The notes below the pieces were generated by a model. That model made no database searches, was not told the origin of the DNA, and saw only the letters and a program-made list of their open reading frames with translations. A stretch of DNA of 64,000 bases. Origin: Tridacna crocea (lineage: Eukaryota > Mollusca > Bivalvia > Cardiida > Cardiidae). The stretch spans positions 55,602,962-55,666,961 of the forward strand of contig OX031062.1 in NCBI GenBank assembly GCA_943736015.1, read 5' to 3'. Below, in pieces: positions 31,797 through 60,885 of the stretch (position 1 is its first letter; each line of letters opens with the position of its first letter). The position numbers and the translations under genes were made by a program.

Positions 31797-31948
31797 TTAA
31801 GTCTGACACATGCTAACCAGTATTTTCTCCTTTTATACAATGTTTTCAAACTTTCAGAGTTTTAATGTTTTTGGCCATACTGCTATCTCATCTGAATAAG
31901 TTTTCAACTTGGACCAGTATTGAATTTTTTCATTTGGTAAGAAGTTAA
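31797..31948 (-). mobile_element. PBM copy lacking its left arm, ends 27 bases before exon 1
   Basis: Keeps half a core (GCTAACCAGTATTTTCTCC) and the L-arm end CATTTGGTAAGAAGTTAA. Its terminal TTAAT lies where the branch point of the following 3' splice site would be expected. Confidence 0.75.
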
Positions 31949-31974
31949 TAGTTCTGTTTTACCTTTTATTTCAG

Positions 31975-32037
31975 GTAACGAGAGTTCAGGGTATATGAGT
32001 GGGTGGAGTTAAAACCCAGTGAGGACAGATTGCAGTA
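31975..32037 (+). other. ATP2B: 5' UTR part of the first coding exon of PMCA
   Basis: Follows TTTTATTTCAG, a strong 3' splice site, so transcription starts in an upstream exon. An in-frame TGA at 32020-32022 comes before the ATG at 32038, which fixes that ATG as the start of the reading frame. Confidence 0.75.
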
Positions 32038-32203
32038 ATGGCACTGAATGACGAAACCGACCAGCCGATACAGTATGGCATCAAACTGGAGGAGCTTCGA
32101 GACCTCATGGAGGTCAGAGGCCACGAGGCACATGAAATCATCCAGACACGATATGGAGGGGTCACCGAAATGTGTCGGAAGTTATATACCTCTCCGAATG
32201 AAG
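32038..32203 (+). CDS. ATP2B: PMCA calcium pump, coding exon 1 (N-terminal tail)
   Basis: Encodes residues 1-55 and the first base of codon 56 of a plasma-membrane Ca2+-transporting P-type ATPase. This family pumps cytosolic calcium out of the cell at the cost of ATP. The stretch is cytosolic. The segment YGIKLEELRDLMEVRG, a following alpha-helical amphipathic region, and the exit CRKLYTSPNE match the conserved PMCA amino terminus, where a helix precedes a TSPNEGL-type motif. The exon ends GAAG before GTAGAA, a usable phase-1 donor. The start is the first ATG after an in-frame stop. Intron 1 (12.1 kb) follows and is filled with PBM copies. Expression control cannot be read from here. Confidence 0.93.
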
Positions 32204-32289
32204 GTAGAAATACAAATTTTTTTTTTTATTAAATGTTGGTATCCATATGCAAATTTTTTTCATTGACACAAATGGTACAAAATTAATAA

Positions 32290-32454
32290 ATAATCTTCTT
32301 TCTATTGTGGTATATCGTTCAATAAACCACAGTTGTGAGTTATGGGGCAGAATAAATAATCCACGAGGGCGATAGCCCGAGTGGGTTATTCATTGCACCT
32401 CATAACTCACAACGTGGTTTATTGAACGATATACCACGATAGAAAGAAGATTAT
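32290..32454. mobile_element. palindromic MITE PAL-4 next to exon 1
   Basis: Arms of about 70 bp (ATAATCTTCTTTCTATTGTG, GTTCAATAAACCAC, GTTGTGAGTTATG) pair almost perfectly with their inverse at 32385-32454. A GAGGGCGATAGCCC centre lies between them. It begins 86 bases after the exon 1 donor. Confidence 0.85.
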
Positions 32455-32555
32455 TTTGATTCTAATATGGCTAATTCTCAGTGAAAGGAAAACAAGTTCA
32501 AACTTAAGAGTAAAAACGCGGATGAAGATAATGCTCCATTGAATAACTCACTCAT

Positions 32556-32592
32556 TGAATGACGTCACTCGACATAGGATGACGTCACTCTA
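32556..32592. promoter_or_regulatory. two perfect CRE sites 20 bp apart
   Basis: TGACGTCA at 32560-32567 and 32580-32587, inside a direct repeat of about GATGACGTCACTC. This is the full palindromic CREB/ATF site. It lies in intron 1 about 360 bases after exon 1. It may be part of a mobile element rather than a host enhancer. Confidence 0.4.
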
Positions 32593-32694
32593 CATGGATT
32601 GTCGCACATTTTACCACGTTTTCCTTGCACTGTGTTTATAGAGCCAAAGTCGCGTGTCATGTTAGAATTAGAATATACAATAGTACTTCTTGTT

Positions 32695-32889
32695 TTAACT
32701 CTTCACCATGCAATTCTGACTTTTAACGACCCTAAGAAACATCGTAGAAAAAGGAGAAAATACTGGTAACCAGCATTTTCTGCTTTTACCACAAATTTTT
32801 CTACCCTACCCACATCAAATATAATTTTTTTAGGCACATTAATTTTGTTGTCTGCAAGTGCAAAATTATGTCGTTTGGTAAAGAGTTAA
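32695..32889 (-). mobile_element. PBM copy, shortened
   Basis: TTAA borders. Deletions in the R arm (CCTAAGAAACATCG) and L arm (GCAAGTGCAAAATTATG). Confidence 0.85.
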
Positions 32890-33126
32890 TTAGTTTCTTG
32901 GGTGTGAGCATACCTTTGAAATCATTGGAGCCCTGCTACAGCCCAGGGTGTAGGATATCATCGACCAAATTTCGTAAACTTGGTTATCAAAAAAATGTTT
33001 GCCAATAGCATATATACAACATAACAAGACTACTAAAATCAATAAGTCTGAGATTCCTGGAACTATTGACTATCGCCCTTCTATGAATTGATTGAGGATG
33101 TGCCAGAACTTATATAGATCCTTACC
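32890..33126. other. no gene or repeat recognised
   Basis: Intron 1 sequence without repeat signature. Confidence 0.4.
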
Positions 33127-33325
33127 TTAACCCATTACCAAAAGACAAAATTTTAGACTGGTCCAAATTGAAAACATTTGCAGACAACAAAAAAAAAGTG
33201 ACTGAAAATTTGAAATTTGTTTTGTGAAGGGTAGAAAACATTGTGAGGAAAGGAGAAAATGCTGGTTACCAGCATTTTCTCCTTTTCCCACAATGTTTTC
33301 TAAAGGCTTCATTCTGAGGGGTTAA
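33127..33325 (+). mobile_element. PBM copy, R-arm end deleted
   Basis: Runs normally to CTTCATTCTGAGGGG and then directly into TTAACCC of the next copy. About 30 bp of the right end are missing. Confidence 0.85.
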
Positions 33326-33552
33326 CCCTTTACCACACAATGTGGACTTTTAACAACAAAGATAAAGAAAGCTTTTGAAAAATATTGTTGGAAAAGGAGA
33401 AAATGCTGGTGATCAGCATTTTCTCCTTTTCCCACAATATTTTCTACCCTATCAAAGTCAGAAATAATCATATTCCCAAGATTTAATTTATTGTCTGCAG
33501 ATGCTTTGAATTTGGTCCAGATTTAAAAAAAAGTCGTTTGGTAAAGAATTAG
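33322..33552 (-). mobile_element. PBM copy
   Basis: Left TTAA shared, right TTAG. Core GCTGGTGATCAGC. Confidence 0.85.
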
Positions 33553-33739
33553 TGTGATAATAGTCAGATTGGGCACAAAGTTGGATGTTTCTGCAGAAGA
33601 TACAGCCAGACCATAAGGGAAAGTCTTGTCTTGATTCTGTTTGTACATGTTATCGTTAGATACGGGTCAAAACTGTCTAGAAAATATGGCATTTGAAGGC
33701 TCTTTTGTACTCATGCATTGAACCTTCTCTGTTGATCTT

Positions 33740-33905
33740 TGTTTCTGAGATGGTTGTGTGGAAAAGTAGCCAGTGGCTTATGAAGCATATTTTGCAGAAT
33801 ACTGGTGATAAAAAATCACGGAAAATCATGGATAGATGCACTGGCAGTTGTAAGATAACTGGAATATTGTTGAAAATGGTGTTTAACACCATAAATACAA
33901 ATAAA
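33740..33905 (+). mobile_element. SINE, 3' two thirds
   Basis: GTGGAAAAGTAGCCAGTGGC, ATCATGGATAGATGCACTGG, AATATTGTTGAAAATGGTG and the tail AACACCATAAATACAAATAA. Confidence 0.7.
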
Positions 33906-33965
33906 CAAAATTTTCATGGTTATTATACCGCTGTCTCTAGCTTGTTCATACTGGAATACAGAGGT

Positions 33966-34148
33966 ACAGATGAGAGGGAGGGGATGGTATCCTAAATCCA
34001 TTAGTTCTCTTCAAAACCCTATGTTGTGGGCACTCATTAGAATCGTCTCGAGACGATTCTAATGAGTACCCACAACATAGGGTTTAGTGGAGAATAATCA
34101 ATATTTTTAATTTTGAAATCAAAATCAATCCCTCTAGCTGAAGCTCTG
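33966..34148. mobile_element. PAL-2 copy 4
   Basis: Left end worn (CAGATGAGAGGGAG). Inner palindrome perfect but four bases shorter at its centre (GAATCGTCTCGAGACGATTC). Confidence 0.85.
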
Positions 34149-35053
34149 AGAATAACTTGTTTAAAAAAAAAAACGATTGCTTGGTGCTTAGAAGTTTAGT
34201 AGTATTTTCTGTTGGCCAGTTATCTTCATGCCAGATGACTGGTTTTTGTATCCAAACTATTTGCAAGAAAGGCATTACTAAATATGTCTTGAATAATATG
34301 TGTCCCTGTAGCAAGTTTTGTTGGAAAAGGGCAAAAGTCTTGGAAATTAGCATTTTCTCCTTTTTCTGAAATGCTTTCAAAATCTTTCTTCCCTAGGGTT
34401 TTGTAAAAAACCCCTAGATTGATTGTCTGGTTAAAGGAACTAAAGCCAGCTGTAAATAGATGGATATTTGCTGTATTGGAATAGCCATTTGGGAAAAGGT
34501 TATACTGCATTATTCATTCAGAAATGATGAAAGGTTTTCAACCCTTGTGGCACTGTATATGGATTAAGTAGCATATGGAGACAGTGTAGATCAAGACCAG
34601 ACTGCATGGAACATGCAGTCTGATCTTGTTTCTACTCTGTCTGCTTTCATATCATGTTTTCTAACCCCAAAGAAAGCTACGAGATGGCAGTAGATGCGTC
34701 TCAAGGACCAAAGGAGACTGTTCCATTTAACTAGTACTACAAAGGTTAAGTACACCCAGCTATAAATCATCGGTTCCTGTCAAAGAGAAGAAGAACTAGG
34801 TAGTTCTACAGGAATGACTGGGTGTGAAAAGGGATAAGGTTGCAGGCCATTAACACACCTCTTGTGTTACTTTGGGAACTGACTTGATGGATTATTAACA
34901 AACTTCTTTTCTAGTGTATTATTATGCATCTAGTCAGGTAGCTCCAACTTCCCATCATTGCAACAGGATTTGTCACTGCCTCTGTCTTAAAAATCAGCAT
35001 AATCTGTGATATCCGTGTATAAAAGAATTTTCAGAATGAAAATAATTTATCCT
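34149..35053. mobile_element. PBM remnant and a PAL-3 copy in unannotated DNA
   Basis: 34235-34440 is a decayed PBM (GTTGGAAAAGGGCAAAAGTC, AGCATTTTCTCCTTTTTCTG). 34578-34642 is a good PAL-3 copy (GAGACAGTGTAGATC, GACTGCATGG/CATGCAGTC). The rest shows nothing. Confidence 0.55.
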
Positions 35054-35297
35054 TTAACTCATTACCAAACGCCAAAATTTTAGGTTTGTTGAAATAGAAA
35101 GCATTTGCAAACGACAAAATAAATGTGACTGAAAATTTGAAATTTGTTTTGTGAAGGGTAGATAACATTGTGGGAAAAGGAGAAAATGCTGGGAAGAGAA
35201 AATGCTGGTTCCCAGCATTTTCTTCTTTTCCCACCATGTTTTCTTAAGGCTTCTATCTCAGGGTTGTCAAAAGTAGGGATTGTGCGGTAATTGGTTA
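35054..35297 (+). mobile_element. PBM copy with an extended centre
   Basis: TTAA borders. The core reads GAAAATGCTGGGAAGAGAAAATGCTGG before CCCAGCATTTTC, a small internal duplication of one stem piece. Confidence 0.85.
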
Positions 35298-35327
35298 AAA
35301 GAAGACCCAAATGATAGGAATTGTCTT

Positions 35328-35556
35328 TTAACCCATTACCACACGATCCCTACTTTTGACGCCCCTGAGAAAGAAGCCTTTAGAAAACATTGTAGGAAAA
35401 GAAGAAAATGCTGGTAATCAGCATTTTCTCCTTTTCCCACAATGTTTTCTACCCTTCACAAAACAAAGTTGAAATTTTCAGTCACATTTATTTTATCGTC
35501 TGCATTTGCTTTCAATTTGGACCAGTCTAAAATATTGTCATCTGGTAATTAGTTAA
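35328..35556 (-). mobile_element. PBM copy, complete
   Basis: TTAA borders. Stem GTAGGAAAAGAAG against CTCCTTTTCCCAC, so not compensated here. Confidence 0.9.
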
Positions 35557-35603
35557 ATGGTAGAACACATTTTTCTCAGGATCACTTATAATGGGCTTAA
35601 ACC

Positions 35604-35826
35604 TACAACTTTTTACCACACAATCCCAAGATTTAACAACCTTGGAAAAGAAGCCTTTTGCAAACATAGTGGACAAAGGAGAAGTTATTGATAATGAGCA
35701 TTTTCTCCTTTTCCCACAGTGTTTTCTACCCTATCAAAGATAAATTATCATAAGGGCCACAATTAATTTGACATCTGCAGATGCTTGGTTCAATCCAAAA
35801 TTTTGCTGTTTGGTAAAGCATTCAAG
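35604..35826 (-). mobile_element. PBM copy, old
   Basis: CTTTTTACCACACAATCCC start, core GTTATTGATAATGAGC decayed, end TGCTGTTTGGTAAAGCATTC. Confidence 0.75.
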
Positions 35827-36018
35827 CGCCTTTCACAAGCATAAGTAACTTTGCAGCAAAATTAATGTAGATAAAGATCAGATTGCACTACTGATGTGTG
35901 AAGATATCTTTGATGTACCCACTCTCTGCTTTTCGGGAGACTTTTATGTACAGAAAAAAATTGTTAAGTTGTGCTTCTTAGCACCTGCAAATGTTTTGAA
36001 ATTGGACCCATCTAAAAT

Positions 36019-36247
36019 TTAACCCTATCTCAAACAATCCCTGGTTTTTACGACCCCAGGATAGAAGCCTTTTGAAAACATTGTGGGAAAAGGAGAAAAT
36101 GCTGGTAACCAATATTTTCTCCTTTTCCCACAATGTTTTCTACCATACTGGAAACAGATTTCGGTTTTTGAGTAACATTTATTTTGTAGTCTGCAGGTGC
36201 TTTCAATTTAGACAAGCCTAAAAGTTTGTCGTGTGGTAAAGGGTTAA
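36019..36247 (-). mobile_element. PBM copy, complete
   Basis: TTAA borders. A half copy (ATGTTTTGAAATTGGACCC) precedes it at 35945-36018. Confidence 0.9.
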
Positions 36248-36395
36248 GTCTTTTGGTGAAAGGTATTTGATACATGAAGCTCTTAGCTTATTATCTATTG
36301 TCTAAGATGTCTCCATAAATATAATTTACACTGCTATTTTGAGATGAATACATGAACAAAATTAGCCTTCTTTATCACTTGTATTTGTGTCATGT

Positions 36396-36624
36396 TTAAC
36401 TCTTTACCAAGTAGCAAAATTTTGGACTGGTCCAAGTTGAAAGCATTTGCAGACAACAAAATTAAAGTGATTCAATAATTCAAATTTGTTTTGGGAAGGG
36501 TAGAAAACATTGTAGGAAAAGGAGAAAATGCTGGTAACCAGCATTTTCTCCTTTTCCTACAATGTTTTCAAAGGTTTTCTTTCTCAGGGTCGTTAAAAGT
36601 CAAGATTGTGTGGTAAAGAATTAA
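36396..36624 (+). mobile_element. PBM copy, complete, compensated stem
   Basis: TTAA borders. Both stem arms carry GTAGG/CCTAC and the palindrome is perfect. Confidence 0.9.
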
Positions 36625-36964
36625 TTTATGTAAATTTATGTTTTTCCTAGTTTTGATAAATGTATGTAGTTATATATATATATAGGTATAAATATGAATT
36701 GACATGCTTTTTAGGCATCATGCATCAAATGAAAAGGCAGGCCTTTATGGAAACATTTTTTTAAAAAATGTGACTGCACAAAACACTAAATATAATCATG
36801 AATAAATTTCAAAGTTCCATTTTTAGAAATTCTTTTTAATAAAATTAGCTGAGTGACGGTAACCAAATGGAAATGACCTGTGTGCAAAGATGTTTTAGGA
36901 TAGAATATTTGAACTGATAGAAGACCGAATAGATTTAGGATCAGGCCCCCCTGTCCTATGCAAT
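36625..36964. other. unannotated, short TA microsatellite
   Basis: A run of about seven TA units lies near 36671. A worn PAL-3-like piece (GATTTAGGATCAGGCC) is near 36930. Confidence 0.45.
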
Positions 36965-37193
36965 TTAACCCATTACCACACAATCCCTACTTTTGACGCC
37001 CCTGAGAAAGAAGCCTTTTGAAAACACTGTAGGAAAAGGAGAAAATGCTGGTAACCAGCATTTTCTCCTTTTCCCACAGTGTTTTCTACCCTTCCCAGAA
37101 CAAATTTCAATTTTTCAGTCACCTTTATTTTGTCGTCTGCAAATGCTTTCAATTTGGACCAGTCTCAATTTTTCTCGTGTGGTAATGGGTTAA
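36965..37193 (-). mobile_element. PBM copy, complete, uniform subgroup
   Basis: TTAA borders. Differs from the copy at 26467 at only a handful of positions by eye. Confidence 0.95.
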
Positions 37194-37264
37194 TCAGATT
37201 CTAGGCTGCCTGCAAAACATATCTTGAGCAAAGATGTTTAGGATAGAATATTTGAAATGAGAGT

Positions 37265-37326
37265 TGACAGTGTAGATAAGGATCAGGCTCTCTGTTAGGT
37301 GCTGTTTGATCTGAATCTATATTGCT
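37265..37326. repeat. PAL-3 copy, diverged
   Basis: TGACAGTGTAGATAAGGATC with a weaker right half ending AATCTATATTG. Confidence 0.5.
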
Positions 37327-37380
37327 GCAAAAGGCATTGGGATCTTGATCTACATAAACTTCTTGTTGCATAACATACTT

Positions 37381-37749
37381 CATTCTTTACTGAACACCAA
37401 AATTTTAATCTTGTCCAAAATGAAATCACGTGCATATAACAAAGATGCAAAATTTGCACAAAATTAATGATGGGACAATTATAAGGCAAGGACAGAAAAT
37501 ATAGCAAAAAATAACAAGAAAAAATGCTAGTTTCTTGCCTCCTGTCCTTTCTCCACCATGTTTTCAAAAGCTTTCTTTATTAGGCTTGGTACAAGTCAGG
37601 ATTGTTTAGTTAATGAGAGTTAATAATACCAAAGTTTTATGACTTTTAAGGAAAAATGCTGTTGAAAACATGGGAAATGCTTCTAAAAAATACCAGCATT
37701 TTCTTCCTTAGTCCACAGTGTTTTCAAAATGCTTCCATCTCAAAGCCCT
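37381..37749. mobile_element. two PBM remnants
   Basis: 37381-37623 keeps the L arm (CACCAAAATTTTAATCTTGTCC) but has a new palindrome-like centre (GGCAAGGACAG..CTGTCC). 37624-37749 keeps CAGCATTTTCTTCC and TTTTCAAAATGCTTCC. Confidence 0.6.
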
Positions 37750-37983
37750 TTAACTCATTACCAAACAACGATATTTTAGGCTTGTCCGAATCGACAGCAT
37801 TAATTTTGCAGATGACAAAATAAAAGTGACTAAAAATTTGAAATTTGTTCTGTGAAGGGTAGAAAACATTGTGGGAAAAGGAGAAAATGCTGGTTACTAG
37901 CATTTTCTCCTTTTCTCACAATGCTTTCAAACGCTTTCTTTCTCAGGGTCGTTAAAAGTCGGGATTGTGTGGTTAAAGGTTAA
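37750..37983 (+). mobile_element. PBM copy, complete
   Basis: TTAA borders, core GCTGGTTACTAGC. Confidence 0.9.
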
Positions 37984-38760
37984 AGCCTCAATGGAGTGTT
38001 TGTTAAAGGGATAAAGACTGGTTATTTGGCAAAAAGTTAAAGCTGTGTCTCAAAATAGCTTGGAACAATGGTTGTGCATAAATAACATGTACTGTAATCC
38101 TTTGTTTAGCACCTTCTTTAATGCAAGCATTGAACCTTTTATAATCAAAAACCTGGACTTGCTTTGTGTGAAGTTTTTTGCTGCTTTTAACAATATTCCA
38201 GTGCTAGCTCTGGCCCAAGTAAAATAATGGCCAACAACTTTTTCTTACAAAAAATAATAGACAAAATAAGCGTGTGAAGTTGGTTTTAAAAAAAAAATGC
38301 ACATGTAGCATTGAACAAACTTTACTGTTAACTCATAGTTTCAAACTTTCATTCACATAATTATGTCAATAATAATAAATCATCTATATATTTAATCTTA
38401 TATTGTAGAAATACTGGGGGAAAAGGAACATTTGCTCTATACCATTTCCTGGGATAGTGCTCATTTTCCAACAAGATTTGCATAAAAGCACAAAGACTGG
38501 TTTCTTGGTTTCCTTTGATGAATGGTTACTTTTTAAACATATAACACAATTTTGTTTCAATCTTACAATGCAGAAAATATTGAGGGGGAAAAAGGAAAAT
38601 TTGTTAAGTGCTACTTCCTGGGACATGGCTCCTTTTACCACAATATTACATAAAAGCATAAGGACTTTTGAGAGTACTTCAGTACCAAACAACATTTTTT
38701 TATTATCATAATAAATGATATGCACAAGTGAATGGAGAAAATTTTCTATTACATGATTAC
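37984..38760. repeat. two similar decayed hairpin-like units
   Basis: 38398-38505 and 38565-38670 share the order AGAAATA/AGAAAATA, GGGGGAAAAAGG, TTTCCTGGGA, TTGCATAAAAGCA, about 165 bp apart. They may be very old PBM-related copies. Confidence 0.45.
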
Positions 38761-39805
38761 CTCCCTTTATTATATTTTAACCCCAATTATTTTCAAATTA
38801 AGTCAGTGTGGCAGGCGATTCAGACTATGGAAACAAAAAGTTATTCACTCAATAGTACATAAACAGTGAGGTAGACTTAAATAAGTGAACAGTGATCCCA
38901 GTAGCTTTTTTTGTTTCAATGGTACACTTGCCCCTGGAGCTGTAAATCTAGGGGTAAGATGTTATAATATGTTATGGCAATAATTGTTCCCTGCTAGAGG
39001 TAAAGTAGTCAATATTGATGATTTGCTGCACAAAACTCTGTTAAAGTAAGATACCTGTGGAAATTTACTGCTTAAAGTCATTAAAAAGCAGAAAAGACGG
39101 TCTAAAGTGACACTGATCGGGCAATGTCACAAGGAACATTTTGTTGTGTCATGGGTTTCCGTGTTTTTTGCATCGAGCATTTTTCCACGTGTGTTGATTT
39201 GTGGATAAGTATTTCCGCGTGATTTGACTATAATTATCAATAAGGGTAGCAAGTAAGTTCAAATCTTGTCATTTTACACAAGTTAAGCGAATAATGTTTT
39301 TTTTTTTCGTTTTTTCTTACGTGAGGTCTCGCGTGTAACCAAAATTTGTTACGTGAATTTCAATTCTATAATGTCAACGTAGTAACATCTGATCATCTGA
39401 TTGGTTCCCTTCTATCACCGCGTCAGTTAACGTGGTCAATCAAACTTAAGAAGAAACAAACAATTATGGCCAATTAACGGCTTATAGTAATATGACAGGT
39501 GTTGTATAATATACCAGTCCATTGTGACCTGTTGATTGCCCACGTCTACGTCTGCCGAGGTGTGAAACAAGCAATTACCACACATTTCCGGCGCAAATTA
39601 ACCTGTGATCTAGGCATGTAAAGGAAATTTTACCCGACTTTTTTGGGAATAAATTAATCGACAATTTTTATCGACAGTTGGAAGAATTAATTGACATCTG
39701 AATTAAAAAATCGACAAATGTCGATAATGTCGATTGGCAGCGCGAGCACTGATATTCTAAGATATTGTCTCTGCATCAGTAAACAGCGCCATGGCTGTTT
39801 GGAGT
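38761..39805. other. unannotated, with a CG-richer part at 39100-39770
   Basis: Unlike its surroundings, 39100-39770 contains many CG dinucleotides and repeated ATCGACA/TGTCGAT words (39657-39736). No inverted ends or coding frame could be fixed. It could be an unrecognised element or a regulatory region of intron 1. Confidence 0.4.
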
Positions 39806-41504: not shown

Positions 41505-41733
41505 TTAACCCATTACCACACAATCCCTACTTTTGACGCCCCTGAGAAAGAAGCCTTTTGAAAACACTGTGGGAAAAGGAGAAAATGCTGGTAACCAGCA
41601 TTTTCTCCTTTTCCCACAGTGTTTTCTACCCTTTCGAGAACAAATTTCTATTTTTCAGTCACCTTTATTTTGTATTCTGCAAATTCTTTCAATTTGAACC
41701 AGTCCAAAATTGTCTCGTGTGGTAATGAGTTAA
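41505..41733 (-). mobile_element. PBM copy, complete, uniform subgroup
   Basis: TTAA borders, perfect stem, L-arm end TCTCGTGTGGTAATGAG. Confidence 0.95.
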
Positions 41734-41957
41734 ACGTTTACCAAACAGCAAAATTTTAGACTGGTCCAAATTGAAAGCATTTGCAGACAACAAAATAAAT
41801 GTGGATTAAAAATTAAAATTTGATATGGGAAGGGTAGAAAACATTGTGGGAAAAAGAGAAAATGCTGGTTACCAGTATTTTTTCCTTTTCGGACAACGTT
41901 TTCAAAAGCTTTCTTTCTCAGGGTCGTTAAAAGTCGGGATAATGTGATAAGAGTTAA
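41730..41957 (+). mobile_element. PBM copy sharing a TTAA
   Basis: Tail-to-head with the previous copy. Right stem worn (TTTTCCTTTTCGGACAACG). Confidence 0.9.
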
Positions 41958-43737: not shown

Positions 43738-43968
43738 TTAACCCTTTAACCCACAATGACAACTTTTGACGACCTTGAGGTAGAAGCTTTTCGAAAACAT
43801 TGTGGGAAAAGGAGGAAATGCTGGTAACCAGCATTTTCTCCTTTTCCCACAATGTTTTCTACCCTTCCCAAATCAGTATTTCGATTCTTCAGTTACATTT
43901 GTTTTGTCGTCTGCAAATGCTTTCAATTTGGACCAGTCTATAAATTTGTCATTTGGTAAAGATATTAC
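43738..43968 (-). mobile_element. PBM copy, complete
   Basis: Left TTAA, right TTAC which opens the next copy. Perfect stem with GGAGGAAATG/CATTTTCTCC variation. Confidence 0.9.
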
Positions 43969-44181
43969 AAAAATATATTAGGCTTGTCCTCATAGAAAGC
44001 ATTTGCACACGACAAAATAAAAGTGACTGAAAGTCTGAAATTTGTTTTGTGAAGGTAAGAAAACATTGTGGGGAAAAGGAGAAAATGCTGGTTACCAGCA
44101 TTTTCTCCTTTTCCCACAATGTTTTCTAAAGGCTTCTTTCTCAAGGGCGTCAAAAGTAGGGATTGTGTGGTAATGGGTTAA
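43965..44181 (+). mobile_element. PBM copy, left end lost, 98 bases before exon 2
   Basis: Joins the previous copy at TATTAC. The end inverted repeat is missing on the left. Right TTAA at 44178-44181. Confidence 0.85.
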
Positions 44182-44278
44182 ACAAGATTAGGCTGTACAT
44201 ATGAAAACAAAGCCCAGGGGTCATTTCATAACATATTCTGTGAAAGATATTAAATCATTTATTCTATTTCTGTTTCAG

Positions 44279-44461
44279 GTTTACCAGGCCATGATGCAGA
44301 CCTAGAGAACAGACGTCAAGTGTATGGTGCAAATGTGATACCCCCTAAACCTCCAAAAACTTTTTTACAATTAGTATGGGAAGCCATTCAAGATGTTACG
44401 TTAATTATTCTTTTAGTAGCAGCTGTTATATCATTAGCATTAACATTTATACCCGCAACTG
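44279..44461 (+). CDS. ATP2B: PMCA calcium pump, coding exon 2 (N-tail and TM1)
   Basis: 183 bases, phase 1 in and out, between TGTTTCAG and GTGAGT. Encodes residues 56-116: [20 protein letters not shown], then [20 protein letters not shown], then a hydrophobic run to TFIPAT at about residues 95-114, which is TM1. The [24 protein letters not shown] signature is diagnostic of PMCA rather than SERCA. The acidic/basic stretch before it is cytosolic. A PBM subtype D copy begins only 27 bases after the donor and another PBM ends 98 bases before the acceptor. Exon sequence itself is clean. Confidence 0.95.
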
Positions 44462-44488: not shown

Positions 44489-44716
44489 TAAACCCTTTCC
44501 CAAACAATCCCTGGTTTTTACGGGTCAGGAATAGAAGCCTTTTGAAAACATTGTGGGAAAAGGAGAAAATGCTGGTAACCAGCATTTTCTCCTTTTCCCA
44601 CATTGTTTTCTACCCTGTCATATAGAAAAATCATCTCTTTAGCAGCTGTTAATTTGTCACCTGCAAAATGCTTTTAATTTGGTCTGGTCCAAGTTTGCTG
44701 TTTGGGAAAGAGTTAA
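44489..44716 (-). mobile_element. PBM subtype D copy just after exon 2
   Basis: Left border ATAA, right TTAA. One stem base differs (CACATTG). Confidence 0.9.
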
Positions 44717-46105: not shown

Positions 46106-46263
46106 ATAAAACTACCTGTGCATTCCAATGCTGTTCCAAAGCCTTCGACATTTGTATAATTCAAGGGAGGTTATTAAGCTCCCCGTGATGCCTGTCAGAG
46201 CTAAATACCGTCATGTAAGCCACATAACATTTATGGTGTGTAAAATCTTTTGTTTTCTGTATT

Positions 46264-46552
46264 TCTCTACCAGATGAAAAAAACGTTGGACTTGTCCAAG
46301 TTGAAATTTTTCATAGACAACAAATTAACTTATTACCAAGTGACAATATTTTAGGCTTGTCCAAATTGAAAGCATTTGCAGACAACCATAAAAAGTGATG
46401 GAAAATTTGAAGTTTGTTTTGTGAAGGGTAGAAAACATTGTCGGAAAAGGAGGAAATGCTGGTTACCAGCATTTCCGCCTTTTCCCACAATGTTTTCTAA
46501 AGGCTTCTTTCTCAGGGTTATCAAAATTAGGGATTGTGTGGTAATGGGTTAA
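46264..46552 (+). mobile_element. PBM copy, complete, preceded by an L-arm scrap
   Basis: 46264-46325 is a short L-arm piece (GTTGGACTTGTCCAAGTTG). The full copy has TTAA at 46325-46328 and 46549-46552, with one unpaired stem base (CATTGTCGG). Confidence 0.85.
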
Positions 46553-46719
46553 ATATTGCTCAAGAAAGGGACTTTTTTCTCAAAGGTGCAGAAGAAAAAG
46601 TTGTGGGGGGGAAAGGAGAAAATGATGGTACCCATCTCATCTCTTTTTCTCAGAATGTTTTCAGAAGTCCGCTCCTTTGGGTAAGTAGTATAAATAGAAA
46701 TCGTTTGGAAAAAGGTTAA
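46553..46719 (+). mobile_element. PBM remnant ending 29 bases before exon 3
   Basis: Decayed core (GAAAATGATGGTACCCATC), R arm with TTTTCAGAAGTCC, right end ATCGTTTGGAAAAAGGTTAA at 46700-46719. Confidence 0.7.
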
Positions 46720-46747: not shown

Positions 46748-46999
46748 AAGAAGAAGGAGCAAGTCACGGGGATGGCTCAGAGAAAGAGGCAGGCTGGATC
46801 GAGGGTGTAGCAATATTATTAGCCGTCGTGGTAGTGGTTTTAGTGACTGCTTTTAATGATTGGCAGAAAGAGAAACAATTTAGGGGACTGCAAGCTAAAA
46901 TAGAACATGAACATCAATTTAGTGTATTGCGTGGTGGAGAAGTTATTCAAATTCCTGTAGGGGACATTGTCGTGGGGGATATTTGCTTAGTTAAATATG
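46748..46999 (+). CDS. ATP2B: PMCA calcium pump, coding exon 3 (outer loop, TM2, A-domain start)
   Basis: 252 bases, phase 1 both sides, between CTTTTCCAG and GTAAGT. Residues 117-200. A Glu- and Gly-rich stretch [20 protein letters not shown] is the first extracellular loop. Then [19 protein letters not shown] (about 136-154) is TM2. [20 protein letters not shown] with [20 protein letters not shown] begins the actuator domain, and both segments are strongly conserved in PMCAs. The valine run in TM2 is a mild peculiarity. The acidic loop is the kind of segment that varies most between species. No frameshift or stop is present. Confidence 0.95.
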
Positions 47000-47253: not shown

Positions 47254-48010
47254 AGTCACCTGAGCATGAAGAGCTTAAGGTGAGCTTTTGTTATCATATG
47301 GTGTCCGTCATGTGTTACCTAGTGTGCATTCTAGAGGCCATATTTTCAGTCCCATACTTACGAAACTTGGTCAGCAGCAAAAATTCTTGAATCACATTGG
47401 GTCAAAAAGTAGGTCACTAGGCCAAATCATGCAAAAACCTTGTCTGCTCTCTAGAGGCCACATTTTCAGCCAGAAACTGATGAAAGGTTATCATAATGTT
47501 TGTCTTAATATCATGAACACATTTAAATTAGGTCATGTTGTGTCAAAAAGAAGGCCACCAGGCAGAATCTTAGAAAAACCTAACTTGCACTTCAGAGGCC
47601 ACATTTTTCGTTTAATACTCATGAAACTAGGTCAAGTTGTTTGTCTTGATGATAATTATTTCAGTCGAGTTTTAAATTGAGACATTTCGGACCACATCTT
47701 ATACAAACCTGTTGTGTACCATAAGGCCAAATTTCCAGCCTGATGTTCATTAAGATTTGTCAGAATGTTTGTTATGATGATATCTCGGATAAGTTTTAGA
47801 TTGAGTCATGTCGGGTCTAAGATCAAATCACAGGATCAAATCTAAGAAAGTCCTTGTGTGCACATAGGCGACCACATGTTTAATTGGTTACTTACTAAAC
47901 TGGTCATAACATTTATTTAGATGAGTATCTTGGACAAGCTTGAAATTGTGCTGTTCTGTCTTTATCAGAATCATAATTGGGTCATGTCTGGTCAAAAATA
48001 GTTCCTCTGA
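47254..48010 (+). mobile_element. helentron-like element with AGAGGCC tandem units
   Basis: Starts CACCTGAGCATGAAGAGC and GTGTCCGTCATGTGTT, then about five diverged units of roughly 120-145 bp. Units are anchored by AGAGGCCA or AAGGCC (47333, 47454, 47593, 47724, 47867) with CATGAAAC..GGTCA and GGTCATGT..GGTCAAAAA. No clean 3' hairpin end was found. Confidence 0.65.
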
Positions 48011-53213: not shown

Positions 53214-53269
53214 CACAATGTCACTTAAGGGTATGAAGGAGGACTTGATTTTAATTGTAACTGTATTCT

Positions 53270-53620: not shown

Positions 53621-53841
53621 TCATTACTAAACAACAATATTTTAGGCTTATCCAATTCGAAAGCATTTGCAGACAACAAAATGAAAGTGACTAAAAATTC
53701 GAAATTTGCTTGGTGAAAGAGTAGAAAACATTGTGGGAAAAGGAGAAAATACTGGTTAAAAGCATTTTCTTCTTTTCCCACAATGTTTTCAAAATATTTC
53801 TTTTCCAGCGTCAAAAGTTGGGATTGTGTATTTAAAGGGTG
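53616..53841 (+). mobile_element. PBM copy
   Basis: Borders mutated to TGAA. Core ACTGGTTAAAAGC. R arm short. Confidence 0.85.
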
Positions 53842-54005
53842 AAAGGTTAGCATGCTTTGATTAGGGTATAGATTGTATAATGGCACAAAGTAAATATCTG
53901 CTAATTTATCACAGCGGAAAAACTCTCTAATGACCAGGCTTCTGGGATGCTGCTAGACAATCAATACAAAACACTGCTTCAACTCTCATAGTTACATGTA
54001 TGTGT
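53842..54005. other. no gene or repeat recognised
   Basis: Short spacer between PBM copies. Confidence 0.4.
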
Positions 54006-54227
54006 TTAAATCTTTACCGCACAATCACGACTTCCCTGTATCAGAAGCCTTTTGAAAACATTGTGGGAAAAGGCGAAAATGCTGGTAACCAGCATTTTCT
54101 CCTTTTTCCCACAATGTTTTCTTCCCCATCCAAAACAAAAATCATTATTTCAGTTCTATTTATTTTGTTGTCTGCAAATCCTTCAAATTTGGTCAAGTCT
54201 AAGTTTTTGTCGTTTGGTAAAGAGTTA
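54006..54227 (-). mobile_element. PBM copy, complete
   Basis: TTAA borders. R arm shortened (GACTTCCCTGTATCAGAAG). Confidence 0.9.
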
Positions 54228-54470
54228 ACTCTTTACAAATGACAAACATTTTAGACTTGTCCATATTCAAAGCGTTTGCAGACGACAAAATAAATGTGAC
54301 TAAAAAATTGAACTTTGGTTTGGAAATGGTGGAAAACATTGTGGAAAAAGGGGAAAATTTTCCCTCAATGTGTTGTACCCGTCCCAAAACAAATTTCCAG
54401 TATTTTGAGTCATATGTTTCTTGTCGTCAACAAATGCTTTGAAATTGGACGAGTCAAGAATTTAGTTTTA
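54224..54470 (+). mobile_element. PBM copy with two L arms facing each other
   Basis: Left half is a normal L arm and stem to GGGGAAAATTTTCCCTC. The right half reads CAAAACAAATTTCC, AATGCTTTGAAATTGG, an inverted L arm instead of an R arm. Confidence 0.7.
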
Positions 54471-54472
54471 GT

Positions 54473-54705
54473 TTTAACTTTTTACCAGACAACAAAATTT
54501 TCAGCTTGTCCAGTTTGAAAGCAGTTGCAGATTAGAAAATAAATCTGACTCAAAAAATGAAGCAATACTTTAAAAGAGAAGAAAACGTTGTAGGAAAAGG
54601 AGAAAATGCTGGTTACCAGCATTTTCTTCTGTTCCCACAATGTATTCAAACTTAGGCTTCTTCCTCTGGGTCATGAAATCAAAGGATTGTTTGGTAAAGG
54701 GTTAA
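54473..54705 (+). mobile_element. PBM copy, complete
   Basis: TTAA borders. Stem GTAGGAAAAGG against TTCTGTTCCCAC. Confidence 0.9.
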
Positions 54706-55233
54706 ATACAGGGTGGTCTCAATTCTGCAGGTCAAGAATGTTATCATTGGATGCTTACCATTATTCCAAACGACAAAGTTTTAAACTTGTCAAGATCCAT
54801 AGCACTTACAGCTAGTATACGTGAAAATGGGTCAGAATGTTTGTCTTTAGGGTAGCTCAGACTAGTGTGAAAATTGGTCATTGAAGTCCAGTATCTCCCC
54901 CTAGATGGCATTCTACAAATACGCATCTATCTAATGTGGGCATTCTGGGTACATAAGCGGACTAATTTTTCAAAACGATAGCCTTTACTTTGAATTTCGA
55001 AATAAACGTTTACTCGGTAAAATGCTACTTGTTGCGATTGATTCAGTTATGGTCAGCTAACAGGTAACCTATGAATCAACCATTTATTAAAACAGTCCCT
55101 GCAGGCTTGGGTTTAGCTTCAGTATAAGCCCTACTTTTTCCAAGTATCGGGAATGGGTGATGCATCATATAAGAACCTTCGAAGAATATGATGTGCAGAC
55201 AACACATCGAAGGCGAAGAGGCCCCATTTCAGT
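54706..55233. other. no gene recognised; one PBM scrap
   Basis: A short L-arm piece (CCAAACGACAAAGTTTTAAAC) is at 54764-54810. Nothing else. Confidence 0.45.
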
Positions 55234-55430
55234 TTAACCCTTTACCACATAATGACGACTTTAAAGGCCCTTCAGGAAGAAGCCTTTTGAAACATTGTGG
55301 GAAAAGGAGAAAATGCTGGTAACCTATCAAAGCAAAATTGAACCATTTGAGCGACTTTGAAATTGTCGTCAGAGAGTGCAAAGGCTTCCAATTTTTATAG
55401 GTCAAAAATTTTGCTTTGTTGTAACTGGTA
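55234..55430 (-). mobile_element. PBM copy, right stem deleted
   Basis: Left TTAA. GCTGGTAACC runs straight into TATCAAAGCAAAATTG. Right border lost. Confidence 0.8.
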
Positions 55431-55871
55431 AATGCTGTCTAAGGTCTAAATCTTTGTCTTCATGATATCTATGAGATGTTAGAAAGTGGGTCATGTCATC
55501 TGAAAAAGGCCTTTTGTTCTGATACACATAATTATTATCTTTTTCTTTTGTTCACCTTCGAGTAATTATGCCTGAAAATAGCCCATGTGGTAATGGGTTG
55601 GAAATATGTGTGAATGATAACTAATTTCAATGCTAGTTGTTAATTCATTGAGAGGGCATGCACTTCTAATGTGTCTCTTTTGTTCCTCAATTTTTCTATT
55701 TTGTCTGTCCTTATGTCCATCAGTCTTTCTATCTGTCTGTCTGTCTTCTAAGGCCAAGACCATGTACATAATGTCAGACAGATTAAGTGGCTTCTGAGTT
55801 TCAAAATAATAGAGATGAATCAAATGTCATAGGCCATGATTTTATTTTCAATGCCATGTTTTGTCAGAATA
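55431..55871. other. no gene recognised; CTGTCTGTC-type scrap
   Basis: TGTCTGTCCTTATGTCC and CTATCTGTCTGTCTGTC at 55700-55750 echo the dispersed repeat at 43612. Confidence 0.4.
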
Positions 55872-56050
55872 CAGAGGGAGTGATGGTATTCTCAATCCAT
55901 TATTTCTCTTTCAAACCCTATGTTGTGGGTACTCATTAGAATCGTCTCAATGAGACGATTCTAATGAGTACCCACAACATAGGATTTTGTGAAGAATAAT
56001 TCATATTTTCAAATTTGAAGTCGAAATCACTCCCTCTGACTGGAGCTCTG
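55872..56050. mobile_element. PAL-2 copy 6
   Basis: CAGAGGGAGTGATGG to GGAGCTCTG. Perfect inner palindrome through TGGGTACTCATTAG and its inverse. Confidence 0.9.
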
Positions 56051-56070
56051 AGAATATCTTGCAAAGCACC

Positions 56071-56112
56071 GGACAGAGTGGATCTAAGATCAGACTGCGT
56101 ATTCCATACATT
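56071..56112. repeat. PAL-3 left half
   Basis: GGACAGAGTGGATCTAAGAT and CAGACTGCG, with no right half. Confidence 0.5.
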
Positions 56113-56309
56113 TTAGTATTTCTATACTGTAGGTATGGTCTTGTCCCACACTGTTGGTATAACCAAGAAAATAAGTGTTCAGTGTTTTCATCATGATGAA
56201 GTCTTGTAACTTGTTACATTTTCTGGAGCCTTTTACCCAGTTCCAAACAGGATCCTGGGGAACCAGGCTTTGTAAAATATGTAGTCGAAGGCAGCAATTG
56301 TTCCTTTTT

Positions 56310-56460
56310 ATATGCCTGAAGGGTTATATTATGTTATGGCCCCGGTCATCTGTCTGTCTGTCGGTCTGTCCATCAGGCTGTTGGCAATTTCTTGTGCGCG
56401 CAACTCTGCCTACAGTTCTCCTTGAAATAAGTTCAAACTTACCACAATGAATCTCTACGA
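56310..56460 (+). repeat. dispersed repeat fragment, CTGTCTGTC type
   Basis: TATGCCTGAAGGGTTATATT, CTGTCTGTCTGTCGGTCTG, TTCTTGTGCGCGCAACTC, and TACAGTTCTCC. Confidence 0.55.
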
Positions 56461-56579
56461 TGTTTAGTTGTGCATGTGACTTTCAAAATTCGGATATCAG
56501 CAGGTGTACTAGGTTTTCACTCATTTCACTAACAAGCCCCTTTTGGTGTGTATGGGCTGCTTTGCGAAGCTCTTGGTCC

Positions 56580-56690
56580 AAAAGTTTTCTATCACAGACA
56601 GATACTGTCATTTGAGCTATTATCAAATTTTCATTTGTATAGCTTTCAAATTCAACAACTCTAAAATTTTGTCATTTGCTAATGTGTTAA
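56580..56690 (-). mobile_element. PBM right half
   Basis: Ends TCTAAAATTTTGTCATTTGC and GTGTTAA. No core. Confidence 0.55.
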
Positions 56691-56789
56691 CACTTATCCT
56701 GTTGAATAAGTTGAATTTTCAAGCCGCCATAGTAAAAACTGAAACAGTGCCATTACAAAACTTTTTTCGGGAGAAAAATACTAGTAGTT

Positions 56790-57243
56790 GCTTATCCCAT
56801 TACAACACAATCCCTACTTTTGACGATCCTGAGAAAGAAGGCTATAGAAAACATTGCAGGAAAAGGAGAAAATGCTGGTAACCAGCATTTTCTCCTTTTC
56901 CTACAATGTTTTCTACCCTTCTTAACCCTTTCCCAAACAAGCCCTTGTTTTTACGTGTCTGCAGTACAGGTCTTTTGAAATCATTGTGGGAAAAGGAGAA
57001 ATTGCTCACAACGAGCAATTTCTCCTTTTCCCACAGTGTTTTCTACCCATTTGGAGAACTTTCTGCTATTTTCATTAAATTTGAAATTGTCGTCTGCAAA
57101 CTCTTTGAGTTTAGAAGAGTCTAAAATTTGTTGTTTTGGAAAGGGTTAAAACAAATTTCAATTCTTTAATCATATTTATTTTGTCGACTGCCAATGCTTT
57201 CAATTTGGACCGGTCTAAAATTTTGTCTTTTGGTAAAGAGTTA
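56790..57243 (-). mobile_element. PBM copy interrupted by a subtype C copy
   Basis: R arm and perfect core at 56790-56921. The L arm resumes at 57150 with AACAAATTTCAATTC and ends TTTTGGTAAAGAGTTA. The break is at CCCTTC/TTAA, so the target was a TTAA that had arisen in this copy. Confidence 0.85.
56922..57149 (-). mobile_element. PBM subtype C copy nested in a PBM
   Basis: TTAA at 56922-56925 and 57146-57149. Contains TTTACGTGTCTGCAGTAC, core GCTCACAACGAGC. Confidence 0.9.
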
Positions 57244-57248
57244 CGACA

Positions 57249-57305
57249 GACAGTGTAGATCCAAGATCAGACTATACATTTTGTGCAGTCTGATCTTGAT
57301 AGGCA
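57249..57305. repeat. PAL-3 copy
   Basis: GACAGTGTAGATCCAAGATC and TGTGCAGTCTGATCTTGAT. Confidence 0.65.
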
Positions 57306-57582
57306 TTGTATGCAAAATTTGGGTCTCGCCTAGCAGCCAGAGGGTTATTTTAAAGACTTTGGTCACAACAGTTGGTACAAGAGCCTTCCAGAGGAATCAC
57401 TATCTGCGAAAGCATTCTATTTTTGTTTTCATGCTTTGACAAAGTGTTTCATTACATATTGATTTTTCCTGCCCTGAAAACAATTTGATTTCAATAATAA
57501 TTTTCCATCTGGAAATAATGGCTGTGTTCTCATGATTTCTTTAACCCTTTGCAACACAACAAAATTCGTACCTTGTTCAAAT
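57306..57582. other. unannotated; short PBM scrap at the end
   Basis: 57541-57582 is the start of a + copy (TTAACCCTTTGCAACACAAC) cut off by the next PBM. Confidence 0.45.
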
Positions 57583-57810
57583 TTAATCAGTTACCAAACA
57601 ATTCCTGGTTTTTACGGCCCAGGGATGTAAGGCTTTTGAAAACTTTGTGGGAAATGAGAAAATGCTGGTAACCAGCATTTTCTCCTTTTCCCACAATGTT
57701 TACTACCTTATCAGAGACAGAAATGATACTTTTAGTCACATTTGAATTGTTGACTGCAAATCTTTAGAAATTGATCCAGGACAGTGTTTATCTGATTGGT
57801 AAAAGATTAA
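57583..57810 (-). mobile_element. PBM copy, complete
   Basis: TTAA borders. Left stem AACTTTGTGGGAAATGAG slightly worn. Confidence 0.9.
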
Positions 57811-57900
57811 AGGCATTAATTTTAGTGGTGACAAATTTTTAACAAACCAAAAATTTACAGAGTCACAGGTCCATGTTGAAAGCCTTAGGAAACATCGTAG

Positions 57901-58129
57901 TTAACCCATTACCACACAAGAAATATTTAGACTGGTCCAAATTCAAAGCATTTGCAGACGACAAAATAAATGTGACTGAAAAATTGAAATTTGTTTTGGG
58001 AAGGGTAGAAAACACTGTGGGAAAAGGAGAAAATGCTGGTTACCAGCATTTTCTCCTTTTCCCACAGGGTTTTCAAAAGGCTTCTTTCTCAGGGGCGTCA
58101 AAAGTAGGGATTGAGTGGTAATGGGTTAA
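57901..58129 (+). mobile_element. PBM copy, complete, uniform subgroup
   Basis: TTAA borders. Stem perfect except CCCACAGGG at the right outer end. Confidence 0.95.
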
Positions 58130-58154
58130 TGTTGCCAAAATGATGCAATTTATG

Positions 58155-58272
58155 TTTGGTAGAATTTGCTTTGAAACAGATTTCAGTTTTGAGTTACATT
58201 TATATTGTTGCTTGCAAATCAACGCTTTCAATTCAGACCAGTCTAAAATTTTGTTGTTTGGTAAAGAGTTAA
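58155..58272 (-). mobile_element. PBM right half
   Basis: From TTTGCTTTGAAACAGATTTC to TTGTTTGGTAAAGAGTTAA. The left half and core are missing. Confidence 0.7.
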
Positions 58273-58830
58273 GATCAAAATTGACTTTTCTGCCGATTTT
58301 GATTGACAAGTCTTTCAAAGTCTTATCGGCCGATGAAAAAGCATCATTAGGCGTCATGTTAACAAAAAAGTCTGACACAATTTGTTATAGACATGCGGTA
58401 ATTTGAGTGTGTCTTTGATTATCAAAACAGCTATTGTGTTATCAATCAGTTAGAATTTAAAAAAAAAAAAAGTTTTATTAACCTAGAGTGAAATATCAGC
58501 TAGAATAAAACTGAAATAAAAGCTCTTTCTGTTTGTATTGGACGCCAATTTTTGGTTAGCTTGTCTGGCTTGACAACGAATACACCACGTTATTAAGGGG
58601 TGTGTGTCAAACTCGCGTTTACAGAAAGGTCAATTGACCTTTCTGTAAACGCGAGTTTGGCACGCCCCCTCCCCCTTACTAACGCGGTATTTCGGTTGTC
58701 AGGCCTGTCAAACTAACCAGAAATGTGTCAGACTTTTTTGTTTACATGACACCCAATGCTGCGTTTTCATTGGCTGATAAGACATTGGAACACCTATCAA
58801 TCAAAATCTGCAGAAAGGTCAATTGTTTGG
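58273..58830. mobile_element. long inverted-repeat element PAL-5
   Basis: Arms of over 100 bp match as inverses: TTTCTGCCGATTTTGATTGA, CTTATCGGCCGATGAAAA and GTCATG..AACAAAAAAGTC on the left, against their inverses at 58724-58825. A perfect 52-bp inner palindrome at 58612-58663 (CAAACTCGCGTTTACAG, AAAGGTCAATTGACCTTT) sits at the centre. No protein is encoded. It looks like a large foldback or MITE-type element. Confidence 0.85.
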
Positions 58831-58881
58831 TGGCAAGGGGTATTTGGGTTTATTGACTTGTTACAAAAATCACAACATAAT

Positions 58882-59109
58882 TTAACCCATTACCACACAA
58901 TCCCTACTTTCGACGCCCCTGAGAAAGAAGCCTTTTGAAAACACTGGGAAAAGGAGAAAATGCTGGTAACCAGCATTTTCTCCTTTTCCCCACAGTGTTT
59001 TCTACCCTTCTCAGAACAAATTTCTATTTTTCAGCCACCTTTATTTTGTTGTCTGCAAATGCTTTGAATTTGGACCAGTCTAAAATTTTCTCGTGTGGTA
59101 AAGAGTTAA
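58882..59109 (-). mobile_element. PBM copy, complete, uniform subgroup
   Basis: TTAA borders. Two bases lost in the left stem (CACTGGGAAAAGG). Confidence 0.95.
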
Positions 59110-59124
59110 AGATGCTCACTCTGA

Positions 59125-59602
59125 GACGTAGTGGATATTTGGTTTTTTTTGGTGAACGATCAAAATTTATTTCATCGAGTGAACACCAATCGGTAATATT
59201 TTCATGAGTGGCGCAGCCAAGGGTGAAAAAATTACCTATGGTGTTCAGGAGATGAAATAAATTTCGATCTTTCATAGAAAAAAACAAATATCATATTTAT
59301 TTCATGCTTTTAACCCTTTCTGGGAGGAGCTTTATCAAAATCTAGTTCTTTTCCGTTATTCCCCATGGCATGCCCTTCCCGCATAGCAACGCTTTACAAT
59401 ATTACGTCAAGCGCGAGAAATGTAAGGTATATGATGTCATATTTCCAATCTGGTTGTTAGGCACGAGCAATTTACCTAGGTAAGGAGAATGTGAAAATCG
59501 GTATTTTCACTGGTTGTACCAGTGTAAGATCGAAAAATATTTTCACTACTATTTCTCGATATCCTACCGGAAAGCATGAAATAATCACGATTATTTGTTT
59601 TT
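59125..59602. mobile_element. inverted-repeat element PAL-7 running into the exon 4 acceptor
   Basis: An inner foldback at 59129-59303 pairs GATCAAAATTTATTTCATC with its inverse. The segment ACAAATATCATATTTATTTC (from 59284) returns as an inverse at 59571-59602 (AAGCATGAAATAATCACGAT, TATTTGTTTTT). Other foldback words are TTTTCACTGGTTGTACCAGTG near 59503. The last copy stops where the exon 4 AG begins. Confidence 0.65.
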
Positions 59603-59605
59603 CAG

Positions 59606-59731
59606 GTGATTTATTGCCTGCTGATGGAATTATAATACAGAGTAATGATCTAAAGGTAGATGAAAGTTCACTCACTGGAGAATCTGACCATGTTAAAAAG
59701 GGGGAACTCACTGATCCAATGCTCTTGTCAG
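59606..59731 (+). CDS. ATP2B: PMCA calcium pump, coding exon 4 (A-domain, LTGES loop)
   Basis: 126 bases, phase 1 both sides, between TGTTTTTCAG and GTAAGT. Residues 201-242: [20 protein letters not shown] then [12 protein letters not shown] and [15 protein letters not shown] (residues 223-227) is the actuator-domain loop whose Glu positions water for dephosphorylation in all P-type ATPases. GDLLPADG and [10 protein letters not shown] are near-invariant in PMCAs. The exon is intact although hemmed in by an inverted-repeat element at its acceptor and a SINE 16 bases after its donor. Confidence 0.96.
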
Positions 59732-59747
59732 GTAAGTCAAAACTACT

Positions 59748-60072
59748 CGAGCTGAGCCCCGGTAGCTCAGTCAGTAGCGTGCAGGACTTTAGAACACGGG
59801 GTCCAGGCTTTGATCCGTGGCTACGACCCTGGCACGGCCAATTTCTTTCGGGGGATTGATGATAGTTACTGCGACAGGATTCATTCCTCTCCCACCACTG
59901 ACTATTGTTTTGAGGATGATCATGTGGGAAAGCAGCCAGTGGCTTGGAAAAAAGTATGTGCAAAGTACTGGTAAAAGAAACTCGGAGATGCATGGATAGG
60001 TGTATTGGCTGCTGCAATATAACTGAAATAATGTTGAAAACAGCATTAAGCACCATAAAATCAATCAATCAG
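59748..60072 (+). mobile_element. tRNA-derived SINE, full length, beside the exon 4 donor
   Basis: Head CCCCGGTAGCTCAGTCAGTAG with A-box character and GGTCCAGGCTTTGATCC in B-box position. Body includes GTGGGAAAGCAGCCAGTGGC. Tail TCAATCAATCAG. Flanked by AACTACT at 59741-59747 and 60073-60079. The left duplication begins nine bases after the donor GT. Confidence 0.85.
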
Positions 60073-60089
60073 AACTACTTAAGGCCATC

Positions 60090-60285
60090 TCTGATAGGGT
60101 ACGAAATATGTGAGAAAATGCTGGTTACCAGCATTTCCTTCTTTGGCAACAACATTCTCAGATGCTTGTTTCATAACGGTTGTTTAATCCTGTCGGAAAT
60201 ATTCCCAGGATTTTAGGACACAGAGAAAGAAGCCTTCTGAAAACATTCTGGGAAAAGGAGAAAATGCTCGTAACCATGACGGCGA
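60090..60285. mobile_element. two PBM fragments
   Basis: 60095-60180 (GAGAAAATGCTGGTTACCAGC with worn sides) and 60195-60285 (R arm to GAAAATGCTCGTAACCATGAC). The second is cut at its core by the next SINE. Confidence 0.65.
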
Positions 60286-60572
60286 GCTGCAATAGCTCAG
60301 TTGGTAGTGTACATTGCTTGCATCCCCTGCTCAGCCAATTTCTATCTGAGGATTGATGATTGTCATTTCAACAGGTTTCATTTCTCTCTCACCACTGACA
60401 GTTGTTTGGACGATAGTTGTATGGTTATGTGGGAAAGCAGCCAGGAGCTTGGAAAGAAAATTGTGGGGAGTACTCAAGAAAGAAACTCCAGGAAAGCAGG
60501 GATAAGTGTAACTGAAGTAATGTTAAAAACTGGGTAAAACGCCATTTAATCAATCCAACAATCAATCAGTTT
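60286..60572 (+). mobile_element. tRNA-derived SINE
   Basis: Head GAGCTGCAATAGCTCAGTTGG, body GTGGGAAAGCAGCCAGGAGC, tail CAATCCAACAATCAATCAG. The B-box part of the head is deleted. Confidence 0.8.
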
Positions 60573-60627
60573 GTGACAGAAACTTCAGCAAAATAGCTCC
60601 TAAGCAGTTTATCCCTTCATTAGACAG

Positions 60628-60652
60628 GTGGGGGGGGGGGGAGGGGGGGAAG
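60628..60652. repeat. G-rich run
   Basis: GGTGGGGGGGGGG then GAGGGGGGG: a short low-complexity tract that could form a G-quadruplex on the + strand. Confidence 0.7.
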
Positions 60653-60654
60653 GA

Positions 60655-60854
60655 GTAGAAAAACATTGTGGGGCGAGTAGAAAACATTATTTTGGGAAGA
60701 GTAGAAAACATTGTGGGAAAAGGGGAACATGCTGGTCACCAGCATTTTCTCTTTTTCCCACAACGTTTTCAAAAGGCTTCCGTCACAGGGTCATTAAAAG
60801 TCGTGATTGTGTGGTTAAAAGTTAAAAATATGGGATTGTGTCATAGAGGGCTAA
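60655..60854 (+). mobile_element. PBM copy with tripled left stem start, plus an extra right end
   Basis: GAGTAGAAAACATT occurs three times (about 60656, 60679, 60702) before the core GCTGGTCACCAGC. After its own end (60813-60825) an extra R-arm end follows, GGGATTGTGTCATAGAGGGC and TAAG, 32 bases before exon 5. Confidence 0.75.
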
Positions 60855-60885
60855 GAAAATGATCAGATTATTTCAAAACCTTCAG

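Follow-up and report, generated by a model that had tools for sequence, protein, structure and literature searches.

Ends of a TTAA-flanked MITE at branch-point distance before exons of a calcium-pump gene in Tridacna crocea

Copies of PBM, a palindromic MITE of 229 bp bounded by TTAA, end 27, 29 and 32 bases before exons 1, 3 and 5 of a plasma-membrane calcium ATPase (PMCA) gene of Tridacna crocea, with the words and at the distances given in the original prediction. This was observed in a single window, i.e., the whole analyzed stretch of 64,000 nucleotides (contig OX031062.1, positions 55,602,962 to 55,666,961 of the forward strand). We put at about 0.55 the probability that insertion at TTAA only, near-saturation with the element and tolerance of insertions up to the branch point together explain these near-exon ends; the elements probably occupy the place of the branch point rather than supply it.

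The gene in the window encodes a plasma-membrane calcium ATPase (calcium pump), of which five exons are present. In a phmmer search, the joined exons 2 to 5 matched PMCA2 and PMCA1 chains at E values of 3e-100 and 6e-100, respectively (9gsd_A, 3e-100), and the coding sequence of exon 1 matched the N terminus of a human-type PMCA1 chain (6a69_A; E = 4.5e-6). The acceptors of exons 2 to 5 were positioned by the protein reading frame, and that of exon 1, which lies within the 5' UTR, was predicted from a CAG and a pyrimidine tract alone. The exons are as follows.

31975 to 32203, plus strand: PMCA exon 1, 5' UTR and coding sequence from the ATG at 32038; acceptor predicted only
44279 to 44461, plus strand: PMCA exon 2, from phmmer of joined exons 2 to 5
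46748 to 46999, plus strand: PMCA exon 3, from the same search
59606 to 59731, plus strand: PMCA exon 4, from the same search
60886 to 61047, plus strand: PMCA exon 5, from the same search

All four introns between these exons (32204 to 60885) are phase 1, the codon being split after its first base, and the lengths of exons 2 to 5 (183, 252, 126 and 162 bases) are each a multiple of three. No other coding gene was found in the window when 10 of the 297 open reading frames listed were scanned with Pfam (no match above the curated cut-offs), and no transposase was among these 10. An open frame at 47279 to 47680 carries a repeated SRGHIF...KLGQ unit and has no Pfam match.

We guess that the name PBM in the original prediction stands for a piggyBac-type MITE. 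The consensus of the element, built from 63 aligned copies out of 71 core matches, has TTAACTCTTTACCA as its left end and TTAACCCTTTACCA (written as the reverse complement) as its right end, with a long palindromic core in between. A profile search of the window with nhmmer returned 146 non-overlapping pieces, of which 73 were near full length (76 pieces on the plus and 70 on the minus strand), and PBM covers 25,602 bases, or 40% of the window, one hand-added tail included. TTAA stood at 62 of the 101 ends facing right and at 61 of the 100 facing left, and two nested insertions carry TTAA at both junctions, the old copies that they split rejoining and aligning to the consensus. PBM thus has TTAA at both ends, duplicated on insertion, followed by CYCTTT ends that resemble the CCYTTT-like terminal inverted repeats of piggyBac-type MITEs, and it is short, noncoding and present in many copies. 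Judged by its sequence, PBM is a piggyBac-type MITE, since it combines TTAA targets with CYCTTT ends. Neighboring copies share or abut at a single TTAA at 12812 to 13246, 27791 to 28242, 41506 to 41951 and 54007 to 54358.

The closest described likeness is CMITE, the piggyBac-related MITEs of Acropora corals, which are about 100 bp long with terminal inverted repeats beginning CCCTTT; the two share TTAA target duplication, a CCCTTT-type repeat start, copies lying close together and stronger conservation of the interior than of the ends (PMC2872659). The likeness is one of plan, and PBM differs in its length (229 versus about 100 bp) and in its long, perfectly palindromic core (PMC2872659). An exact 25-base core pattern of PBM had no match in prokaryote contigs and none in viral contigs, which says little, because the collections searched hold prokaryote and viral sequence. 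Among six PBM core and end strings, one was matched in the part of the literature accessible to the search, in one gastric cancer paper only. The window also holds two arrays of near-identical 166-bp units (6935 to 7979 and 62089 to 63127; 6.3 copies each, about 54 kb apart) and a 25-bp minisatellite of about 49 copies (2894 to 4127).

The element pieces that stand before exons 1, 3 and 5 are the following.

31813 to 31948, minus strand: old PBM piece (model 1-146; nhmmer), left-end TTAA at -27 of exon 1
46262 to 46328, plus strand: left part (model 4-69; nhmmer, rejoined alignment) of the old PBM before exon 3
46325 to 46552, plus strand: younger PBM nested in the old exon 3 copy, TTAA junctions at 46325-46328 and 46549-46552
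46551 to 46719, plus strand: right part (model 68-229) of the old PBM before exon 3, TTAA 46716-46719 at -29
60051 to 60187, plus strand: left part (model 57 onward; nhmmer) of the old PBM before exon 5
60184 to 60825, no strand assigned: nested insertion splitting the old exon 5 PBM, made up of an inverted PBM (60188-60276), another repeat and a PBM (60657-60824)
60826 to 60854, plus strand: tail of the old PBM before exon 5, ending GGGCTAA at -32

The last A of the terminal word lies at -27 for exon 1 (TTAA at 31945-31948, exon start at 31975), at -29 for exon 3 (TTAA at 46716-46719, exon start at 46748) and at -32 for exon 5 (CTAA at 60851-60854, exon start at 60886). That all three ends belong to PBM copies was confirmed by identity to the consensus, which amounted to 101 of 136 aligned bases for the exon 1 piece, 164 of 220 for the exon 3 copy and a fraction of 0.706 for the old exon 5 copy after its parts were rejoined. 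Their description as right ends needs correction at exon 1, where an inverted copy (minus strand, model 1-146) presents its left end to the exon. At exon 5, the end at -32 holds as the tail of an old copy, although the copy found there by the profile search itself stops at 60825 (position -61). We placed the -32 end on the map manually and assigned it to the tail of the older copy, the other portion of which occupies 60051-60187. The last 23 bases of this tail match the consensus end at 19 positions, a score equaled in none of 200 shuffled 5-kb stretches (best, 18), and the nested insertion that separates the two parts has TTAA at both junctions (60184-60187 and 60822-60825). Two similar stretches, at 59732-59980 and 60282-60570, resemble by eye a tRNA-derived SINE, and the first begins near the exon 4 donor. 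By divergence, the old exon 5 copy ranks 1st of 123 pieces (the oldest-looking), and the pieces at exons 1 and 3 rank 20th and 23rd; all three thus fall within the 23 most diverged of 123 (P = 0.006 in a post hoc test). Such high divergence of the exon-side copies is not predicted by our main explanation and counts against it.

Exons 2 and 4 have no such end, the nearest right-facing PBM ends lying at -98 and -497, respectively, and none of the five acceptors has a right-facing end nearer than -27. The surroundings of exon 2 are as follows.

43967 to 44181, plus strand: PBM ending at -98 of exon 2 (nhmmer)
44250 to 44253, plus strand: empty TTAA (TATTAAAT) at -29 to -26 of exon 2, no element end there
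44489 to 44716, minus strand: PBM starting 28 bases past the end of exon 2 (nhmmer)

On the donor side, an end at +20 to +40 was found in one of five exons (exon 2, at +28) and at 1 of 44 control sites. Four of the five exons have an element no more than 100 bases from one or both of their edges, as might be expected if PBMs had created these introns in the manner of introners, which are likewise MITE-like and whose target duplication can supply splicing signals; introners, however, create an intron with splice sites at their edges, whereas PBMs lie within preformed introns (PMC9860276). PBM ends stand at least 27 bases inside the introns (the nearest being 27 bases from an acceptor and 28 from a donor), neither the element nor its TTAA holds a splice site, and several unrelated copies fill each intron. 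An introner-like origin is therefore very improbable, and we rejected it for the PMCA introns because no splice site stands at an element edge.

A second alternative is coincidence in element-packed DNA, in which an end occurs every few hundred bases and three near-exon ends were picked afterwards. With 40% of the window made up of PBM and 102 right-facing ends in it, such proximity comes cheaply, but ends at -20 to -40 were found at three of five exons compared to 9 of 193 acceptor-like control sites (P = 0.0009), and random placement of the exons gave at least three such ends in 0.00055 of 20,000 trials. Controls were sites outside elements with at least 8 pyrimidines among 12 bases, a count that the real exon 5 site, with 7, falls short of; with the threshold lowered to 7, 15 of 340 controls had an end at this distance (P = 0.0008). 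The P value rose to 0.012 without exon 1, to 0.020 without the exon 5 tail and to 0.17 without both, that is, once the predicted acceptor and the hand-added tail, the two weak elements of our case, are set aside. All P values quoted are too small, because window, side and distance range were picked by the finding itself. A circular-shift control was uninformative, since 193 of 64,000 shifts were allowed, in four runs that amount to two alternative placements only; 16 shifts had three hits, every one of them in the two runs adjoining zero, and the 158 shifts outside these two runs had at most two. The enrichment of element ends at -20 to -40, drawn from five exons, is suggestive, and we regard pure coincidence as rather unlikely.

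The excess could be divided further. Outside elements, 270 empty TTAA words were counted in the window, and 128 pieces have a recognized end, so that occupancy is 128 of 398 sites (about 32%). At four of five acceptors (the exon 2 site being empty), the first TTAA or PBM end fell at -20 to -40, compared to 27 of 193 controls (P = 0.0017); given these four sites, which include one decayed CTAA (exon 5), occupancy of three of four is unremarkable at about 32% occupancy (P = 0.10). The excess, if any, thus lies mainly in the placement of TTAA, which is consistent with a host word in the branch region, with an exon preference of the element as the lesser part.

Branch points of animals are expected to carry the word yUnAy at -18 to -44, to pair with U2 and to have no usable AG between them and the acceptor. 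TTAAT fits yUnAy at -27 of exon 1 and at -29 of exon 3, although 42% of 31-base stretches contain such a word by chance alone, a figure that again favors coincidence. At exon 1, an AG lies three bases past TTAAT, too close for use, and TTAAT is a likely branch point. At exon 3, host TTCAC words at -25 and -17 have an equally good pairing score, and TTAAT is a candidate beside them. At exon 5, CTAAG at -32 has the best U2 pairing among the candidates listed, as the claim that the T-to-C change brings the word nearer the consensus would have it, but it does not fit; a G follows the A, a CAG ends at -20 (12 nt downstream of CTAAG) and the host word ATGAT at -24 competes with it. Since a CAG between candidate and acceptor as a rule speaks against so distant a branch point, the use of CTAAG is doubtful. 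The empty TTAAA at -26 of exon 2 has the best U2 pairing of seven candidates listed and, with an A following, is not yUnAy.

It had also been proposed that the elements now provide the branch point. The words at exons 1, 3 and 5 lend this some color, as does the retention of TTAAY at two of three exon-side ends versus 7 of 32 among all old-piece ends (those two included). Yet TTAA is the target word, the base that follows it at exons 1, 3 and 5 (T, T and G) is host sequence, the element adds only G or A residues upstream, and exon 2 has its TTAA at -26 with no element end there. This proposal is not upheld, and co-option of PBM ends as working branch points appears improbable; because these elements target TTAA for insertion, the host most likely carried the branch-like word before they arrived.

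We therefore return to TTAA-only insertion, near-saturation and tolerance as the preferred explanation. A very abundant piggyBac-type MITE would integrate at TTAA only, and TTAA followed by a pyrimidine also satisfies yUnAy; four of the five PMCA acceptors have TTAA or its decayed form CTAA 26 to 32 bases upstream, where it would have preexisted. Insertion duplicates TTAA but does not disturb the right-hand TTAA, the pyrimidine tract or the AG, and an element could therefore abut the branch region without breaking the acceptor. Insertion further downstream would part the branch point from the AG and would have been purged by selection. Elements occupy about a third of the window's TTAA sites, and three of the four near-acceptor ones were hit. 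The earlier suggestion that insertions were tolerated only up to a limit survives in part: no end lies nearer than -27, and TTAA and the downstream host sequence are intact, but tolerance does not by itself put ends at the limit, and TTAA-only targeting and occupancy of about 32% are also needed. Against this explanation stand the small number of acceptors, only five and chosen after the pattern was seen, and the words at exons 2 (TTAAA, not yUnAy) and 5 (CTAAG).

In mammals, all classes of transposable elements are depleted within 50 to 100 bp of exons (PMC3088655). The underrepresentation zones are alike in that selection removes insertions near splice sites, so that a limit near the acceptor is expected, whereas ends at -27 to -32 would be unusual there (PMC3088655). 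In the portions of the literature available, no report joining piggyBac, TTAA and branch points was found; PMC5505980 mentions piggyBac/TTAA and branch points, but separately.

A broader version, which we put forward tentatively and consider unlikely as it stands, is that of a "branch-point-safe" transposon whose piggyBac-type TTAA target coincides with TTAAY, which inserts right at the branch points in animal introns, restores them by target duplication and piles up 25 to 35 bases before exons genome-wide. If there is no genome-wide excess, the PMCA gene would be a reminder that near-exon ends come easily in DNA that is 40% one repeat. If the excess is genome-wide, the target word of a transposon would overlap a splicing signal, which would give a simple reason why some insertions very near exons are tolerated, and branch points might then be read from insertion ends.
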